Shown: one piece after another, positions 4,245-24,399 of the stretch | Layout of the letters: every line of letters starts with the position of its first letter | Numbering within the stretch: the first letter of the stretch is position 1 | Source: a virus | Strand: one strand, 5' to 3' | DNA length: 43,944 nucleotides | Virus record (IMG/VR): IMGVR_UViG_3300045996_003834 | Coordinates: 1 to 43,944 of that record | The notes under the pieces: model-generated | The model's input: only the letters and a program-made list of their open reading frames with translations | The model's database searches: none | What the model was told of the DNA's origin: nothing | Position numbers and translations under genes: made by a program

Positions 4245-4697
4245 TCACAGGGCACGCTCCACAGAGAGGTGTTGAAAGAAGCCGCCCTTGGTCGCCGGGG
4301 CGACGGACCAGCGGACGGAGACGGTCCCGAGCGGCGCACGCAGCGAGGGCATCAGCATGGGCCGGAGCTTGCCGTGCCCGCGCATGTTGTCGTACCCCGT
4401 GGCCAGCACCGCCGAGACGGCCGGCGTGACCGGGCCGATGCGCGGCGCGTCCCACGTCCACCCGGCGTAGACCGTGGTGCGGGAGTAGCTGTTGCGGTAC
4501 GCGCCGACGAGCGCGCCGGAGTCGGCCGCCCAGTAGGCGCCGAAGTTGCGGTTGTTGTACGCAACCTGGGTCTTGGTGCCGTCGCTCCAGGAGCGCTCGA
4601 AGTTCGGCGTGGCGTGGCGCGAGACGAGGTGCACCCCGACGGTGTCGGCGTGGGCGGAGCCGGCGAGCAGCGCGGCGAGGATGAAGAGGTGCTTCAT
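4245..4697 (-). CDS. Secreted periplasmic protein, beta-rich
   Basis: A 150-residue protein with a clear Sec signal peptide: lysine at position 2, hydrophobic core, cleavage after AHA at about residue 17. The mature part is rich in Tyr, Asn, Gly and Ser, with an alternating pattern (YNNRNFGAYW, then YRNSYSRTTVYAG) resembling a small envelope beta-protein found in various phages and Proteobacteria. I cannot name the family. It is the first gene after promoter element P3 (4730-4770) and has the AGAAAGGAACTTG leader, so it begins its own transcription unit. A role in altering the cell envelope, for example superinfection exclusion, is inference only. Confidence 0.75.
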   Translation of the reverse strand: MKHLFILAALLAGSAHADTVGVHLVSRHATPNFERSWSDGTKTQVAYNNRNFGAYWAADSGALVGAYRNSYSRTTVYAGWTWDAPRIGPVTPAVSAVLATGYDNMRGHGKLRPMLMPSLRAPLGTVSVRWSVAPATKGGFFQHLSVERAL

Positions 4698-4729: not shown

Positions 4730-4770
4730 ATTATGCTCTAGTTTTTGCTCGACGGGCAACTATTTTTGCT
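4730..4770 (-). promoter_or_regulatory. Promoter P3 with twin AGCAAAA operator boxes
   Basis: Read on the minus strand: TCGAGCAAAAA boxes whose AGCAAAAA cores lie at 4763-4770 and 4742-4749, 21 bp apart. A -35-like TTGCCC (4754-4759) and a -10-like CATAAT (4730-4735) are 18 bp apart. It overlaps the last codons of the upstream gene and points at the secreted protein gene at 4697. The same layout recurs at 9284-9334 and 9798-9848. Confidence 0.7.
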
Positions 4771-5047
4771 CGATGTGCTCCTCGTCTTGGCAAACGTGCA
4801 CCCGCCGCGGCCCGGCCCAAGGCGCCACCTCCTGGACAAAGGCGAACTCCGCGGCCGGCGGGTCCGGGGCGACCTCCGTCCGCCGCAGCACCCACTCCCA
4901 CCCCGCCGGCATGGCGGCGCCGGGCGGGTGGCGCGCGATCAGCTCCAGGATGTCGGTGAAGAAGCGGTCCTTGCCTTGGCGGGAGCCTTGCACCACGCCC
5001 CCGAGGGCGAGCGCCTTGATCCGGGAGAGCAGCTCCTCTTCGGTCAT
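4760..5047 (-). CDS. Hypothetical protein (95 aa)
   Basis: A small protein with a charged helical N-terminus (residues 1-45) and a second half containing MPAGWEWVLRRTEVAP, distantly reminiscent of the PAGWKLVPVE module of two proteins encoded upstream. The start at 5047 overlaps the previous stop as ATGA. Its final codons carry the operator boxes of promoter P3. Not recognised. Confidence 0.65.
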   Translation of the reverse strand: MTEEELLSRIKALALGGVVQGSRQGKDRFFTDILELIARHPPGAAMPAGWEWVLRRTEVAPDPPAAEFAFVQEVAPWAGPRRVHVCQDEEHIEQK

Positions 5048-5319
5048 GCCCCGCACTCCTGCTTGCGCGCCGCGTCGATGAGCGCGTCAAGGTCCAGCCC
5101 GCCGATGATCTCTGTTTTCTGCACCCCGTCGTCGTAGACAGAGTGCGCGAACCCAGTGACGTCGCGGATGCACCGATACCGCTCGGCGTCCTCTGCGAGT
5201 CGGTCGATGGCGGCGTGGAGGGCCTCGAAGGTTTCGCGGCTTGGCGTCTGCTGCGCCCACAGTGCATCCGCCAGCCGCTTCACTTCCTCCGCCTGCGCGG
5301 ATCGGTTGCCGGTGGTCAT
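5044..5319 (-). CDS. Hypothetical phage protein (91 aa)
   Basis: A helical acidic protein. Its central RYRCIRDVTGF resembles small early proteins common in phages of Proteobacteria (patterns like AERYRWLR), which have no assigned function. AGAAGGA precedes ATG 5319, and the gene is coupled at both ends by ATGA overlaps. Confidence 0.7.
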   Translation of the reverse strand: MTTGNRSAQAEEVKRLADALWAQQTPSRETFEALHAAIDRLAEDAERYRCIRDVTGFAHSVYDDGVQKTEIIGGLDLDALIDAARKQECGA

Positions 5320-6696: not shown

Positions 6697-7004
6697 TTCT
6701 GCGATTCCTTGTAGGCGGTCAGGGCGACGACTGCTGCGTCGAGTGCTTCGGGCAGTGGGGTGACGCGGCGGGTCCAGATTGGCTCCGGGTCGCCGCTGAG
6801 ACGCTTGAACTCGTTGCCGCTGACCATGCCTTGCAACGCCTCCGCCATCTGCCGCACCAGCGCCTCGCGGGCTTCGAGGTGGGTGCGCAGCCGGAACTCG
6901 CACCCGTCCAGGTCCACCTCCTCCGTCTGGTCCCCGTCGTCGGGCACCTCTTCGGCCATGCGGTACTCGCCGGCCAGCCGCATCGCTTCTTCAACGAACT
7001 TCAT
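6693..7004 (-). CDS. Hypothetical helical phage protein (103 aa)
   Basis: An acidic protein with a long helical stretch at about residues 40-65. The final 40 residues (EPIWTRRVTPLPEALDAAVVALTAYK) resemble small early phage proteins of unknown role. The start at 7004 overlaps the stop of the GH16 gene as ATGA, so its translation is tied to that gene. Confidence 0.65.
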   Translation of the reverse strand: MKFVEEAMRLAGEYRMAEEVPDDGDQTEEVDLDGCEFRLRTHLEAREALVRQMAEALQGMVSGNEFKRLSGDPEPIWTRRVTPLPEALDAAVVALTAYKESQK

Positions 7005-8137
7005 TTGTAGCACCTCACGTAGTTGATCTCGAGCGGGCCGAGCTTGTCGTCCACGCCGTTGCGCCCGGCCCACCCGCCGCCCACCGCGTAGTTGATGATC
7101 AGGTGTGCGGGCGCGGCGGGGTGCCCGTCGGCGCGGCGCCAATCCAGCTCGCGGGTGTGCGTGTGCTGGCCGTCCCAGTAGTGCACCACCCGGTCGGGTA
7201 ACCAGTCCAAGCCCACCGTGTGCCACGCGTCCGTCTGGTCCTCCTGCGTGTGCCACGCCATGTTCGGCTCGTCCCAACCGCGCTTGCTGTCCAGCAGCCG
7301 CGTGCGCTGCTCGTCGTGCGGGATCACGCCCGCGTGCACCATGTTGGGCTTGTCGGTGGCGCCGTCGTTCACGTACTCGAAGACGTCGATCTCGGGCGGC
7401 CATTCCAGCCGGCCATCGCTGGACACGTCCGGGTTGAGCCACATGGCGGGGAACACCCCGCGGCCCTTGGGGAGCCGGACGCGCGCCTCGAAGAACCCGT
7501 ACAAGAACGTCCGGTCCGACCGGATCATCCCCGAATCCCACAGCCCATCCGCCCGGCGCCGCGGCTGGATCTTCAGCACGCCGCCCGACACTTGGTGCAG
7601 GTCGGTGTACCGCTGCAGCTCGGTGATCAAGTGGTCCTTCTTGCCGTCCTCGTAGATGAACCGCGTGTGCCACTTGTCGCGGTCGAGCGCCGTGCCTTCG
7701 AACTCGTCGTTGAACGCCAGCCGCCGCCCGGCTGGCACCGCGCTGGCCTTGTTCCAGATGGTGGGCTCGGTTTGCGCCCGGGGCGGCGCAGCCTCCGTGC
7801 TCACCGAGTACAGGTCGGCCCGGTTGCCGAAGGTTTGCACCACGATGCGCGCGCTCTGGGTGAAGTTCGGCGCCGCGAAGACGATCTCGACGCGTTGTCG
7901 CTGGTTGCCGCGCACGGTGCGCACGAAGTTGCGGACGATGCCGCCGTCGGCGGCGCGGAACTCCACCGCCACGGTGCACGAGCCGCTGAGGGTCGCGTTG
8001 CGCAGCTCGGCGACGACCTTGTGCGTCTCTCCGGGCTTCCACCCGCTCACGGGGAGTGACGTTTGCCAGCCCACGTCCAAGCGATCCGCGAACCGCACCG
8101 CGTAGGCCATGTCCCAGGCCAAGTTGATCAGCTCCAT
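7001..8137 (-). CDS. Glycoside hydrolase family 16 (beta-glucanase/laminarinase-like)
   Basis: A 378-residue protein. Residues about 136-378 form a GH16 domain: FNDEFEGTALDRDKW opening, SGMIRSDRTF and YGFFEARVRLP strands, AMWL, and the catalytic signature EIDVFE at 249-254 (E249 nucleophile, E254 acid/base). The six-residue form with an inserted Phe is the beta-bulge type known from laminarinases and lichenase relatives. Residues about 25-115 look like a separate beta-sandwich, perhaps carbohydrate binding. GH16 enzymes cleave beta-1,3/1,4-glucans, agarose or carrageenan; the substrate cannot be read from sequence. No signal peptide is visible. AGGAGG precedes the ATG. The gene lies in the early operon, not the tail module. 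It may act on capsular glucan at lysis or be packaged; both are inference. Confidence 0.9.
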   Translation of the reverse strand: MELINLAWDMAYAVRFADRLDVGWQTSLPVSGWKPGETHKVVAELRNATLSGSCTVAVEFRAADGGIVRNFVRTVRGNQRQRVEIVFAAPNFTQSARIVVQTFGNRADLYSVSTEAAPPRAQTEPTIWNKASAVPAGRRLAFNDEFEGTALDRDKWHTRFIYEDGKKDHLITELQRYTDLHQVSGGVLKIQPRRRADGLWDSGMIRSDRTFLYGFFEARVRLPKGRGVFPAMWLNPDVSSDGRLEWPPEIDVFEYVNDGATDKPNMVHAGVIPHDEQRTRLLDSKRGWDEPNMAWHTQEDQTDAWHTVGLDWLPDRVVHYWDGQHTHTRELDWRRADGHPAAPAHLIINYAVGGGWAGRNGVDDKLGPLEINYVRCYK

Positions 8138-8268
8138 TGTTCTTCCTCCTGTTGTTGCGGCGCGGCGGGGCGCCCTTGGTAGACCGGAGCGACTTGCCGC
8201 TCCGCGTATTCCGCCATGTCATCCATCATCTCCGTCGGCGTCTCGGGCCGCTGCTGAGGGGGCTTCAT
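8128..8268 (-). CDS. Small Gln/Pro-rich protein (46 aa)
   Basis: A short acidic protein with a Pro/Gln-rich start and a Gln/Glu-rich end, probably disordered. The start at 8268 overlaps the primase stop as ATGA, and it overlaps the GH16 start by 10 bases. Function unknown; the coupling argues that it is translated. Confidence 0.55.
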   Translation of the reverse strand: MKPPQQRPETPTEMMDDMAEYAERQVAPVYQGRPAAPQQQEEEQWS

Positions 8269-9203
8269 GCCGCCTCCCGCGCGGCGGCGGCCTCCAGCTC
8301 GTCGAGGGCTTGGTCGTTGATCCAGTCGGTCAGCTCCGCCCAACCCCGGTCGGCGCAGTGGCCGTGGTGGCAGCGGAACGCCCCGTAGAACTCGTTCTCC
8401 TCCGCCGGCTCGCGCACCGCGGCGCCCGTGTCGGCGCCGGCCGTGTGGTCTTCGAGCCACGGACACGTCATCTCGGTCCACCCGCTCGGGTCGGGCTCCT
8501 CGCGCTTCAGCATCCGGCGCGCGGCGAGGAACTTGTACGCATCGGTGTACGCGCGGTTGCGCTCCAGCGCTTCTTCGGTCTGGAGCCGCTCGCGGCGTTG
8601 GCGACGGCCGTTGATCTGGAGGCCGAACGCGGCGAGCAGCTCGTCGCACGTGTACCGCCGGCCGGAGGCTTCGCGCAGCTGCACGCGCCACCCGCCGTAG
8701 GCCGCCTTGCCGTTCAGGAACCCCGGGAGCCGCCCGACCCGCGTCACCCCGGACATCCCCGGGTCGGCGCCGAGGAGCTTGCCGGAGATGAACGCCCGGA
8801 TCACCCCGTCGAACCGCGCGGCGTCGCGCTCGGGCTCGGAGAGCAAGTACCACCACTGCTCGTTGCCCGGGGAGGTTTCGATGCGCAGCGTGGGCGGCAC
8901 CCCCGCGACGACAGCCCGGTCGACCTTGGTGCCCACGTCGTCCACCATGAGCGCCCGCCCCGCGGCGAACGTCTCGGTGCGGCGCCGGAACGACCCGTCC
9001 GCGGCCCGCCGGAACGACCCCACCGTCACGTACCCGTTCCACGCCTCCGGCAGCACCAGCTCCCCGCCCAGCCGCCAGGGCCGAGGGCGCCACGCGGTGG
9101 TGGGAGCGTTGTTGGGGTCGCCGGGGAAGCCGCAGAGGATCAGCCGCTCGTCCGGGGGCATGTCCGCCCCGAGCGCGGCCAGGAAGCTTTCCGCATCCGT
9201 CAT
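8265..9203 (-). CDS. RepB/PrimPol-type DNA primase
   Basis: A 312-residue protein matching the RepB-like archaeo-eukaryotic primase fold: DD at 88-89 in ALMVDDVGTKVD as metal ligands, TSPGNEQWWYL at 110-120 as the nucleotide-binding loop, and RVGRLPGFLNGK with a following YGG. The C-terminal part carries CPWLEDHT and FRCHHGHC, a zinc-binding arrangement typical of such phage primases. The start at 9203 follows the leader CAGAAAGGAACTTG; an earlier in-frame codon lies inside the promoter region. It would synthesise primers for the SF3 helicase-driven fork and for DnaE. It is the first gene of the minus operon. Confidence 0.85.
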   Translation of the reverse strand: MTDAESFLAALGADMPPDERLILCGFPGDPNNAPTTAWRPRPWRLGGELVLPEAWNGYVTVGSFRRAADGSFRRRTETFAAGRALMVDDVGTKVDRAVVAGVPPTLRIETSPGNEQWWYLLSEPERDAARFDGVIRAFISGKLLGADPGMSGVTRVGRLPGFLNGKAAYGGWRVQLREASGRRYTCDELLAAFGLQINGRRQRRERLQTEEALERNRAYTDAYKFLAARRMLKREEPDPSGWTEMTCPWLEDHTAGADTGAAVREPAEENEFYGAFRCHHGHCADRGWAELTDWINDQALDELEAAAAREAA

Positions 9204-9236
9204 GACCAAGTTCCTTTCTGTTGTGTCGAGGCCCGA

Positions 9237-9263
9237 ATTGTGCTCCAAGTTCTGGTCGGGCAA
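9237..9263 (-). promoter_or_regulatory. Promoter P4 for the early minus operon
   Basis: On the minus strand TTGCCC (9258-9263) and CACAAT (9237-9242) with 15 bp between, or TTTGCC with 16. Upstream is an AT-rich tract. Core sequence TTGCCCG...GAGCACAAT parallels P3 (TTGCCCG...GAGCATAAT) but lacks three bases and a clear inner box. It shares the TGAAGCAA box at 9284-9291 with the divergent promoter P1. Confidence 0.5.
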
Positions 9264-9283
9264 ATGAAATATTTTTTTGCGAT

Positions 9284-9334
9284 TGAAGCAAAAAGTTGTT
9301 GCCGATCGAGCAAAAGTGGCGCATGATTGCTTCA
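9284..9334 (+). promoter_or_regulatory. Promoter P1 with three operator half-sites
   Basis: TTGCCG (9299-9304), 17 bp, CATGAT (9322-9327). Half-sites of the TGAAGCAA type: 9284-9291, 9306-9313 (TCGAGCAA) and inverted TTGCTTCA at 9327-9334, spaced 22 and 21 bp, two helical turns each. It drives the gene at 9360 and lies back to back with P4. The whole 9204-9359 gap is regulatory. Confidence 0.7.
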
Positions 9335-9359
9335 TCGACACTCAGAAAGGAACTTGATC

Positions 9360-9632
9360 ATGACCCTCCCCGTCGCCCGCCGCTTGTTGAAAGAGCTGGC
9401 TTGCATCGCTGTCGAACGGCCCCTCACGAAGCCCGAGCGCACCATGACCTTCTTTTTCAGCCCCTTCGCCCGCCTGGCCGACCGAGTCGAGGTGTCCTAC
9501 CTGCGGTTCTGCCTGAAGCACATCGAGCAAGATCTGGCCCAGTTGGAGCTGCAGCGCGGCGTCTGGGAGCAAGAGCGCGACCGCATCCGCGTCGAGCTGG
9601 CCGCCATGGGCGAACTGCGCTCGGAGGACTGA
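9360..9632 (+). CDS. Hypothetical early protein, coiled coil (90 aa)
   Basis: First gene of the rightward operon. The N-terminal half is basic and aromatic (MTFFFSPFARLADRVE); residues about 55-85 form a strong heptad-like coiled coil. The leader CAGAAAGGAACTTG precedes ATG 9360. Function unknown; as the first gene after the divergent control region it is a candidate for an early regulator, but it has no visible HTH. Confidence 0.6.
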   Translation: MTLPVARRLLKELACIAVERPLTKPERTMTFFFSPFARLADRVEVSYLRFCLKHIEQDLAQLELQRGVWEQERDRIRVELAAMGELRSED

Positions 9633-9635
9633 GCG

Positions 9636-9788
9636 ATGCACGAGTACAAAGTCGTCTTCTGGGGTGCGCGCGGCGAGGTTTTGGCCACCGTCGTGGTGCT
9701 CGAGAAGTCCACGGGCCGCGCCAAGTGCCGCGCCAACGAGCTTGTCACGTGCTCCTGGGTGCTGATGACTGCCGAGCGCGTTCGCTGA
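9636..9788 (+). CDS. Small protein (50 aa)
   Basis: A short frame from ATG 9636 to TGA 9788 coding for a beta-rich, basic peptide starting MHEYKVVFWGARGEVLATVVV. GGAG lies upstream. It ends just before promoter P2. Resembles other tiny early phage proteins; function unknown. Confidence 0.55.
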   Translation: MHEYKVVFWGARGEVLATVVVLEKSTGRAKCRANELVTCSWVLMTAERVR

Positions 9789-9797
9789 CTTCACGAT

Positions 9798-9848
9798 TGA
9801 AGCAAAAATTGCTTGCCTTGAAGCAAAAGTTAGAGCAGAATTGCTTCA
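9798..9848 (+). promoter_or_regulatory. Promoter P2 with three operator half-sites
   Basis: TTGCCT (9813-9818), 17 bp, CAGAAT (9836-9841). Exact TGAAGCAA copies at 9798-9805 and 9819-9826 and the inverted TTGCTTCA at 9841-9848, spaced 21 and 22 bp. The first copy also forms AAGCAA-AAA-TTGCTT with the next bases. It drives the gene at 9869. Confidence 0.75.
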
Positions 9849-9868
9849 TCAACAGAAAGGAACTTGAA

Positions 9869-10015
9869 ATGAACGCACTGACCTCCTTCAAAGCTCTCGT
9901 CACCGCTCCGAACGGCGACAAGTCCGTCATGACCGTGAAGGCCGCGTCCGAGAAAGCCGCCCTCGCCCGCTTCGACCGGATGGGCTTCGTCTCGGTCCGT
10001 TGGATCGTCGCCTGA
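9869..10015 (+). CDS. Small protein (48 aa)
   Basis: Starts at ATG 9869 after the leader CAGAAAGGAACTTG and promoter P2. The peptide has a beta-beta-alpha-beta look, with VMTVKAASEKAALARFDRMGF in the middle, similar to small phage proteins that alternate strands and a helix. Function unknown. Confidence 0.55.
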   Translation: MNALTSFKALVTAPNGDKSVMTVKAASEKAALARFDRMGFVSVRWIVA

Positions 10016-10034
10016 CCACACCGAAGGACACGAA

Positions 10035-10208
10035 ATGAACGCAACCATCACCCGCCAAGACGTTGAACAAGCTGCAAAGGACGCATGCCTTGATGTTCTG
10101 GAGGCCATCAGCCGCATGCAGATGGTCGCCAGCAGGGCTGGTGATGAAAAGCTTCTGGATCGCCTCTGCGAAATCAAGGCTGAAGTGATCGAGGCCTATC
10201 TGGCCTAA
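10035..10208 (+). CDS. Small helical protein (57 aa)
   Basis: A frame from ATG 10035 to TAA 10208 with AAGGA upstream. Almost entirely helical by eye (EQAAKDACLDVLEAISRMQM and a second helix to the end), acidic, with two cysteines. Function unknown. A UUCG hairpin follows the stop directly. Confidence 0.55.
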   Translation: MNATITRQDVEQAAKDACLDVLEAISRMQMVASRAGDEKLLDRLCEIKAEVIEAYLA

Positions 10209-10214
10209 CACCCC

Positions 10215-10228
10215 GGCCCTTCGGGGCC
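10215..10228 (+). other. UUCG tetraloop hairpin
   Basis: GGCCC-TTCG-GGGCC, a 5-bp GC stem closed by the very stable UUCG tetraloop, in the 43-bp gap between two small early genes. There is no uridine run, so a role in mRNA 3'-end protection or attenuation is more likely than simple termination. Confidence 0.5.
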
Positions 10229-10251
10229 TCACAACCAGAAAGGAACTTGCC

Positions 10252-10443
10252 ATGGAAACCGTTCAGTTCATCCGCATCGACGGCACCGTCGACGACATCC
10301 CCGTCACGACCGTGCAGGAGCTGCAGAGCACGATCGCCGAGGAGCTGCTGATTCACGGCGCCACGCTGCTTTGCGCGGTGCACACGCTGCTGCTCTCGGG
10401 CGTGATCGTCGCGGACAGCGGCACCGTGGTGGCGTTGCACTGA
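10252..10443 (+). CDS. Small protein (63 aa)
   Basis: Starts at ATG 10252 after the leader CAGAAAGGAACTTG. The C-terminal half (residues 33-60) is hydrophobic and could be a membrane segment, though interspersed His and Cys make this uncertain. The next gene starts at its stop as TGATG. Function unknown. Confidence 0.55.
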   Translation: METVQFIRIDGTVDDIPVTTVQELQSTIAEELLIHGATLLCAVHTLLLSGVIVADSGTVVALH

Positions 10444-10619
10444 TGCGCGCCGGCCGCAAGCGTGGCGAAGAGCACGCGTGGCACAGCTCCTTCGTCGAGA
10501 CGCAGTTCCAGGAGTCGCAGCGTGTGCGTGAACTCCTGTCCCCTCACCAACCCGTTCCCCGCCGACCGAGCCGCAGCTGGTTCGGGCGGCTCTTGCGTGC
10601 CGTTTGGCGCGCGCTCTGA
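10443..10619 (+). CDS. Small basic protein (58 aa)
   Basis: Shares the A of the upstream stop (TGATG). Strongly basic, with Arg-rich ends (MRAGRKRGEEHAW and SRSWFGRLLRAVWRAL), the last part a possible amphipathic helix. Could bind nucleic acid or membranes; no family recognised. Confidence 0.5.
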   Translation: MRAGRKRGEEHAWHSSFVETQFQESQRVRELLSPHQPVPRRPSRSWFGRLLRAVWRAL

Positions 10620-10638
10620 AGCTCCCGAAGGAGGACCC

Positions 10639-11274
10639 ATGACAGAGAAAATTCTCCGCTCGCAATCCGAGATCCCCGACGCCAGCATGGCCGATCTGCT
10701 CGCCACCTACAACGCGCTCACCGGCCAGAGCGTGCGTCGCTTCTCGAGCCGCGCGGTGGGCGAGGGCCGGGTGCGCATGGCGATCCTGGCCGCCACCGAC
10801 GCGGCCGGGCACGCCGGAGTTCCCCGCGGCACGGTGCCGCTGCCCAAGACCCAGGCCGAGCTGCGGATGAAGGCTGCCGAGCTGGCCAAGCTGGAGGAGC
10901 ACACGTGCGTCGAGCCCACCCCGGTGCCCCCGCCCGCCGACGGCAACCCCTACCCCAAGGGCTCCACCGAGAGCGGCTTGTGGTACACCGCGCGCAAGGC
11001 TGAAGCCGCGCTGCGGCTCAAGCCCCCCGTCAAGAAGCGCCAGAAGCGCACCACGCCGCCCTTCGTCGCCGTGCGCGCGACGTTCGCCGGCAGCAGCAAG
11101 CCCCAAGCCGCCAGCTTGCGCGCCGAGATCCTGCGCAGCATCCAAGGCTTCGCCCCGAAGGGCGTGACCATCGAGGCGCTGAACGCGCTCTACGAGGCGC
11201 CCGTCCGCAGCTACGTGCAGAAGCTGATGGAGAAGAAGCACGTCGAGCCGTGCTCCAAAGAGGATTGCGCATGA
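10639..11274 (+). CDS. Putative DNA-binding protein (211 aa)
   Basis: GAAGGAGG precedes ATG 10639. The N-terminal region contains ATYNALTGQSVRRFSSRAVGE, a pattern seen at the start of several phage and bacterial DNA-binding proteins (LYN-TGK-VKRF-R). Residues about 95-150 are Pro/Lys-rich and linker-like. The C-terminal 50 residues (GVTIEALNALYEAPVRSYVQKLMEK) look like a winged helix-turn-helix. It is the best regulator candidate in this operon and might recognise the AGCAAAA operators, which is inference. The stop overlaps the next start as ATGA. Confidence 0.65.
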   Translation: MTEKILRSQSEIPDASMADLLATYNALTGQSVRRFSSRAVGEGRVRMAILAATDAAGHAGVPRGTVPLPKTQAELRMKAAELAKLEEHTCVEPTPVPPPADGNPYPKGSTESGLWYTARKAEAALRLKPPVKKRQKRTTPPFVAVRATFAGSSKPQAASLRAEILRSIQGFAPKGVTIEALNALYEAPVRSYVQKLMEKKHVEPCSKEDCA

Positions 11275-12197
11275 GCCGCGCCCCCGTCATCGTGGGCGCC
11301 GGGCTCGCCGGGCTGATCGCCGCGCACGCGTGGCCCCGGTCCCCGGTGTTCGAGGCCGCCCCGGCCCCGCGGCTGGGTCACGCGGCGCTGCTCCGGTTTC
11401 GATCGGACGCCGTCGCCCGGCTCACGGGCGTCGACTTCCGCCGCGTGCAGGTGCGCAAGGGCGTGTGGTCCGAGGGCGCGTACCGGCCCGTGGATATCCG
11501 GCTCGCCAACCAGTACGCCCACAAGTGCCTGGGCCGGATCGCGGGCGACCGCAGCATCTGGTCGCTGGAGCCGGTGGAGCGGTTCGTGGCGCCGGACGAC
11601 TTCTACGAGCGGCTGATCGAGCACACCAAGGGCCGCGTCGAGTGGGACACCGAGTTCAACTTCGGCAGCTCCACGGGCCGCATCGTCTCCACCGCGCCGC
11701 TGCCGATCGTGCTGGGGTCGCTGGGCATCGAGCACGACCTGACGTTCGAGCGGGCGCCGATCACGGTGGTGCGCGGCCGGGTGGAAGGCGCCGACGTGTT
11801 CCAGACGACGTACTTCCCGGACAGCCACACCCAGCTCTATCGCGCCTCGATCACGGGCTCGACGCTGATCGCCGAGTTCGCCTCGAACCAAGTGCGCGAC
11901 CACGACGCGCGGCTGGACTTGCTGACCATCGAAGCGGCGTTCGGTTTGCCCCGCGGCTCGATCAAGGTGCAAGACACCGTGGAGCAGAAGTACGGCAAGA
12001 TCGCCCCGCTCGCCGCCGAGGTGCGCAAGGCGCTGTTGTTCCGGCTCACGCAGGAGCGCCGGATCTACTCGCTCGGGCGGTTCGCCACGTGGCGCAACAT
12101 CTTGCTCGACGACGTGGTCACGGACATCGGCGTGATCAAGAACTTGCTCGCCAACAACGCCGTCGGGTACGACCTGCTGCAAGCCGCGGCCCGATAA
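11271..12197 (+). CDS. FAD-dependent oxidoreductase
   Basis: A 308-residue protein starting with a dinucleotide-binding Rossmann motif GAGLAG (residues 9-14). The second strand ends in an acidic FEA at about 34, as in FAD-binding amine-oxidase or UDP-galactopyranose-mutase-like folds. The rest does not match a family I can name. Translationally coupled to the upstream gene by ATGA and followed 27 bases later by the flavin-dependent thymidylate synthase, so a role in nucleotide metabolism or DNA base modification is suggested by position only. Confidence 0.75.
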   Translation: MSRAPVIVGAGLAGLIAAHAWPRSPVFEAAPAPRLGHAALLRFRSDAVARLTGVDFRRVQVRKGVWSEGAYRPVDIRLANQYAHKCLGRIAGDRSIWSLEPVERFVAPDDFYERLIEHTKGRVEWDTEFNFGSSTGRIVSTAPLPIVLGSLGIEHDLTFERAPITVVRGRVEGADVFQTTYFPDSHTQLYRASITGSTLIAEFASNQVRDHDARLDLLTIEAAFGLPRGSIKVQDTVEQKYGKIAPLAAEVRKALLFRLTQERRIYSLGRFATWRNILLDDVVTDIGVIKNLLANNAVGYDLLQAAAR

Positions 12198-24374: not shown

Positions 24375-24399
24375 ATTATCGCACGATTGCTCCGAGCAA
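24375..24399 (-). promoter_or_regulatory. Palindrome TTGCTC-C-GAGCAA upstream of the lysis genes
   Basis: A 13-bp palindrome at 24387-24399 made of the same GAGCAA half-site as promoters P1-P3, in the 68-bp gap before the holin candidates. A GATAAT -10-like hexamer (24375-24380, minus strand) follows, but no good -35 stands at the right distance. It may place lysis genes under the same regulator. Confidence 0.4.

Follow-up and report, generated by a model that had tools for sequence, protein, structure and literature searches.

The 43,944-base stretch of DNA analysed here (the window), an IMG/VR virus record with a G+C content of about 66%, contains an A/T-rich control region of 156 bases, which extends from a RepB-like primase gene (8265–9203, minus strand; PF16793, phrog_4861) to the first small early gene (9360, plus strand). 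The question raised by this locus is whether it holds a divergent regulatory switch. A sequence-only reading had proposed back-to-back promoters, P4 facing the primase gene and P1 facing the small early genes, which share half-sites forming a three-site operator at P1, with a 211-aa winged-helix protein as the candidate regulator.

The window also encodes a DUF5906 primase-like protein, ThyX, DNA polymerase III alpha and a SNF2-type helicase, all assigned to replication, as well as a tail/terminase block; the gene directly behind the primase (7001–8137, minus strand) carries a Glycosyl hydrolase family 16 domain (PF00722, E 8.6e-16). Relatives were collected by a primase scan, which gave 36 loci. 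Among named phages, no match was obtained by megablast with the first 20 kb of the window, or for the 211-aa protein or the PagP-like protein described below, and the primase matched 360 named records, all with an identity below 60%. Peptide-pattern scans of viral contigs gave no close kin of the P1-driven 90-aa, PagP-like, GH16 or 211-aa proteins; since local tblastn found 28 loci for the 211-aa protein, such scans overlook distant kin.

Divergent promoters and their leader

The presence of divergent promoters between the primase gene and the small early genes is supported by comparison of sequences. On the plus strand, P1 comprises an upstream box, TTGAAGCAAAA (9283–9293), with its A-tract placed as in the relatives, a -35 hexamer TTGCCG (9299–9304), a spacer box, ATCGAGCAAAA (9305–9315), and a -10 hexamer CATGAT (9322–9327) located 17 bp from the -35; an A seven bases past the -10 (A9334) fits a transcription start. 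On the minus strand, P4 can be drawn with a -35-like TTGCCC (9258–9263) and a -10-like CACAAT (9237–9242) separated by a 15-bp spacer, or by 16 bp if TTTGCC, one base upstream, is taken instead. The leader/RBS sequence AGAAAGGAACTTG, present in five exact copies in the window, stands downstream of all four promoters identified, P1–P4; before the primase start at 9203 it occupies 9207–9219 (minus strand), and the P2 copy is found at 9854.

Two observations count against the promoter reading: a generic strict sigma70 consensus scan of positions 8000–11600 gave 0 promoters, and in P4 the -35 is poor and the spacer short. The relatives speak for it. Many of their control regions have the same divergent layout, and the promoter-leader module TTGC...AT...AGAAAGGA gives 33 matches in 15 of the 22 whole records as opposed to 0 with a reversed control; it is this common module that bears out the back-to-back arrangement. 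The hallmark of sigma70-type promoters, hexamers about 17 bp apart followed by a leader and RBS, is thereby found conserved in kin. As to the leaders themselves, hairpins lie just past the start in P1-type leaders of the relatives (for example in L011, L028 and L033; one such hairpin is GGTCGAGTTGCGACC), with stems that differ, and the fold energy has p ≤ 0.05 in 10 of 25 leaders; those of the window fold at 0 (P1–P3) and -0.6 kcal/mol (P4).

A box repeated in three promoters of the window

The spacing proposed for the three P1 sites, 22 and 21 bp with the last one inverted, is as described, and it is the sequence of the middle site that falls short: TGAAGCAA is exact at 9284–9291 (plus strand) and, inverted, at 9327–9334, and between them lies TCGAGCAA at 9306–9313 (plus strand), with two mismatches to TGAAGCAA. 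The third, inverted site, which overlaps the -10, the discriminator and the putative start A9334, is weak as well; TTGCTTCA sits where many relatives carry TTCGTTCA just after the -10, at the start region, and differs from it by two bases, and this 'site' would mainly represent the discriminator and start region. Sharing of the site by P4 did not hold up, as P4 has only TTGGAGCACAA (9248–9238), a weak match with two mismatches and a PWM score of 14.5 versus 18.4–21.7 for the six boxes described next.

What is real is the pair of phased half-sites around the P1 -35, which is seen again in P2 and P3. The box TYGA(A)GCAAAA has six exact occurrences in the window, two per promoter, all within P1, P2 and P3, and the members of each pair are 21–22 bp apart in P1, in P2 (9797–9848) and in P3 (4774–4730, minus strand). 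P2 consists of an upstream box, TTGAAGCAAAA (9797–9807, plus strand), a -35 TTGCCT (9813–9818), placed by its register with P1, a spacer box, again TTGAAGCAAAA (9818–9828), and a -10 CAGAAT followed by a TGCTTCA start region (9836–9848). With three exact TGAAGCAA octamers at 9798 (plus), 9819 (plus) and 9841–9848 (minus), 21 and 22 bp apart, P2 is a better copy of the three-site arrangement than P1, in which that arrangement was originally noticed. In P3, on the minus strand, the boxes ATCGAGCAAAA (4764–4774) and GTCGAGCAAAA (4743–4753) lie 21 bp apart around a -35 TTGCCC (4754–4759), with a -10 CATAAT (4730–4735) after an 18-bp spacer. P3 precedes a PagP-like gene (4245–4697, minus strand; phrog_3600, E 6e-8), that is, lipid A palmitoyltransferase-like, which by this position may be expressed alongside the early genes; a PagP-like gene has also been reported in Burkholderia phage CSP3 (PMC10269572).

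AGCAAAA pairs spaced by 20–23 bp number three in the window and 0 in 300 dinucleotide shuffles, which rules out a chance origin of the box set, while P1 alone stays within its shuffles. In a single-promoter repeat test covering P1 and P3, the best direct repeat of P1 was equalled in 17 of 100 shuffles and its inverted repeat in 25 of 100, neither being significant, and the direct repeat of P3 was matched in 0 of 100. The octamer TGAAGCAA occurs exactly 10 times in the window versus 0.9 expected under a first-order Markov model, and since five of these copies lie outside P1 and P2, the octamer alone is unspecific for control regions. In a different part of the window, at 24387–24399, between tail-fibre-assembly-like and holin-like genes, there is a perfect palindrome, TTGCTCCGAGCAA, half of which resembles the GAGCAAAA box.

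The local score between upstream and spacer box is 7, 10.5 and 11 in the three window promoters and at most 5 in 19 promoters of relatives, which marks the repeat as lineage-specific. Upstream of their boxes, the three window promoters have unrelated sequences (30–38%), and therefore any promoter duplication would need to be short. Two explanations offer themselves: copying of a short promoter cassette that had an internal repeat, or recognition by a protein of the bases that come before the A run. The latter leads to a tentative alternative, in which TYGA(A)GCAAAA pairs serve as an operator confined to this lineage. A putative regulator, most likely a repressor shutting off early genes, would bind the direct repeats on one face of the DNA across the -35 in P1, P2 and P3 and so place the small early genes and the PagP-like gene under common control. 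The confinement of all six full-consensus boxes to three promoters, the invariance of AGCAAAA (6/6) next to variable intervening bases, and an internal repetition unique to the window among 22 promoters argue for it; it is set back by the lack of the pair in all 33 relatives' control regions compared, by a spacing equal to that of two polymerase contacts, and by the fact that no regulator gene was identified. A scan of a genome collection with the stricter spacer-box plus leader pattern also told against it, giving a single match, by chance, inside a coding gene. Thus, the three-site operator lacks support in the form proposed, and one made of two direct repeats is possible, for which P2 is the best, clean site for testing. 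Should the TYGA(A)GC bases be bound by a regulator, the early genes would be linked to the surface-modifying PagP-like gene. No report of the box was found in the literature searched, and it could still have been published.

Conservation in relatives and the meaning of the tracts

The spaced half-sites themselves, whose absence from relatives had been named in advance as evidence against an operator, are indeed absent there: exact TGAAGCAA occurs in 0 of 33 relatives' control regions, no spaced pair was found in any of them, and the octamer within one mismatch appears once each in four of the 33. A three-site operator conserved across the family is thus rejected at the level of sequence. What the relatives do keep are the A/T tracts, one just upstream of the -35 and often another in the spacer, at a distance of about 22 bp. 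In 25 of their promoters, picked by hexamers and leader with tracts ignored, each of the five positions from 9 to 5 before the -35 is A in 17–22 promoters; 16 of the promoters have AAAA within the 14 bases before the -35 (shuffle mean 3.9), and 12 have an A/T run of four in the spacer (shuffle mean 4.0), mostly 9–5 bases before the -10. The UP element hallmark, an A/T tract just upstream of the -35, is thus present in the relatives, and P1 of the window is in register with them; its spacer tract is shifted upstream by one or two bases relative to most of theirs.

A review (PMC10911233) places UP elements from -40 to -60 and has the spacer touched by beta-prime at -22 to -18. If A9334 is +1, the P1 tracts would occupy roughly positions -44 to -40 and -22 to -19. 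The best reading, to which we assign a probability of roughly one half, is that of strong early sigma70-type promoters with A-tracts at the RNA polymerase contacts. P1, P2 and P3 would be related promoters, and P1 and P4 two back-to-back early promoters, in a phage without sign of lysogeny, read by the host's sigma70-type RNA polymerase. The two boxes of P1 would set A-tracts at two contacts about 22 bp apart, the UP element, touched by the alpha C-terminal domain, and the spacer, and tracts at both would favour strong early transcription. Two such contacts would account for the 21–22 bp spacing that suggested an operator. The layout in the sequence, its recurrence in three promoters and the conserved positions of promoter, leader and tracts are observed directly; from there we infer the start sites, polymerase contacts, promoter strength, early timing and host sigma factor. 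A-tracts alone account neither for the AGC found ahead of the A run in each of the six boxes nor for the similarity between a promoter's two boxes. Overall, the divergent early promoter region is real and family-wide, and the repeated box in it is lineage-specific.

In a more far-reaching reading, the family would keep a fixed early-promoter scaffold on which each lineage swaps in a regulator site of its own where the polymerase makes its contacts: in the window these would be the TYGA(A)GCAAAA direct repeats, and in L028, L019 and L005 inverted repeats that differ. We consider this unlikely, though not negligible; if true, the swapped sites would be a case of operator specificity that diverges fast in phages with no lysogeny genes detected. 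Inverted repeats do surround the upstream A-tract and -35 in the promoters at 5234 and 2901 of L028, 4972 of L019 and 4476 of L005, with arms that co-vary from one promoter to the next (CGCCGCGGCA/TGCCGCGGCG and GCGCTCGGCA/TGCCGAGCGC; shuffle p 0.00–0.05). A host DNA-binding protein recruited to the boxes would explain, by inference only, both the lack of a visible phage regulator and the variation of boxes between phages of different hosts; the looser box patterns gave matches at chance level in the genome collection, with unrelated organisms among the matches listed, and we regard this proposal as distinctly improbable.

Another element is found on the primase side of the relatives' control region (e.g., upstream of 741 in L033), a phased direct repeat CCRAGA-N-CCGAGAAT whose second copy forms the -10. 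It is present in 17 of 27 distinct sequences (26 from relatives plus the window) versus a shuffle mean of 0.004, and absent from the window itself; of the operator-like elements here, it is the better conserved.

The 211-aa protein and known phage systems

The 211-aa protein (10639–11274, plus strand) has homologues at 28 of the 36 relative loci by local tblastn, in the same early block. Its AlphaFold model has a mean pLDDT of 86.5, with block means of 88–95 over residues 151–200, and contains a predicted C-terminal winged helix (strand 144–147, helices 160–170, 178–185 and 190–198, strand 202–205). Short homologues keep the winged helix without the N-terminal half (L040 6775–7092, L033 4278–4595, L024 5268–5585 and L005 3362–3700). 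Foldseek gave no match to the protein at an E of 0.001 or better. By VIA-align the winged-helix domain is nearest to methionine aminopeptidase 2 and Ebp1 (Z 8–9.7), which are no transcription regulators; an ArsR repressor comes lower (Z 6.3, 59 residues, 3.2 Å). The idea of a divergent switch operated by this protein, bound at the three sites, stands on its fold, predicted with high confidence, on the ArsR match and on the early position of the gene, and it meets with a conserved helix that is at odds with boxes missing from relatives: R190, K195, L196 and H201 are invariant in 20 homologues, and conservation of the winged helix in relatives that lack the boxes speaks against its reading TGAAGCAA. 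We hold such a role to be very improbable.

The lambda OR/OL regions, with CI and Cro, have promoters placed back to back and a series of similar sites spaced by about two turns, and both features have a counterpart here. In contrast to the CI/Cro system, the 14 records searched, among them the window and some of them possibly fragments, yielded no HTH_3 domain (controls 14/14) and, in a search that covered the phage integrase family, no integrase; moreover, the sites are not dyads, and the divergent partner P4 lacks a good site, so that the control region does not have an operator serving both promoters.

In Cluster A mycobacteriophages (L5, TipsytheTRex), short asymmetric promoter sites are oriented with transcription (PMC9283540). 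The boxes resemble these operators and stoperators, as portrayed there, in being short, asymmetric, repeated in phage promoters and oriented with transcription; unlike the stoperators of that account, all six full-consensus boxes (6/6) are in three promoters and none elsewhere in intergenic DNA, and no repressor has been identified for them.

A likeness is also seen to sigma70 phage early promoters with an UP element and an AT-rich spacer, with which P1 shares hexamers 17 bp apart, an upstream A-tract, an A/T run in the spacer and an A fitting the start. The region can thus be used as a model of promoter and leader in an uncultured phage family, and it illustrates how a spaced 'operator' may come about where two polymerase contact points lie 22 bp from each other. 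It departs from such promoters in that each A-tract has a TYGA(A)GC 5' extension, in both places and in all three promoters.
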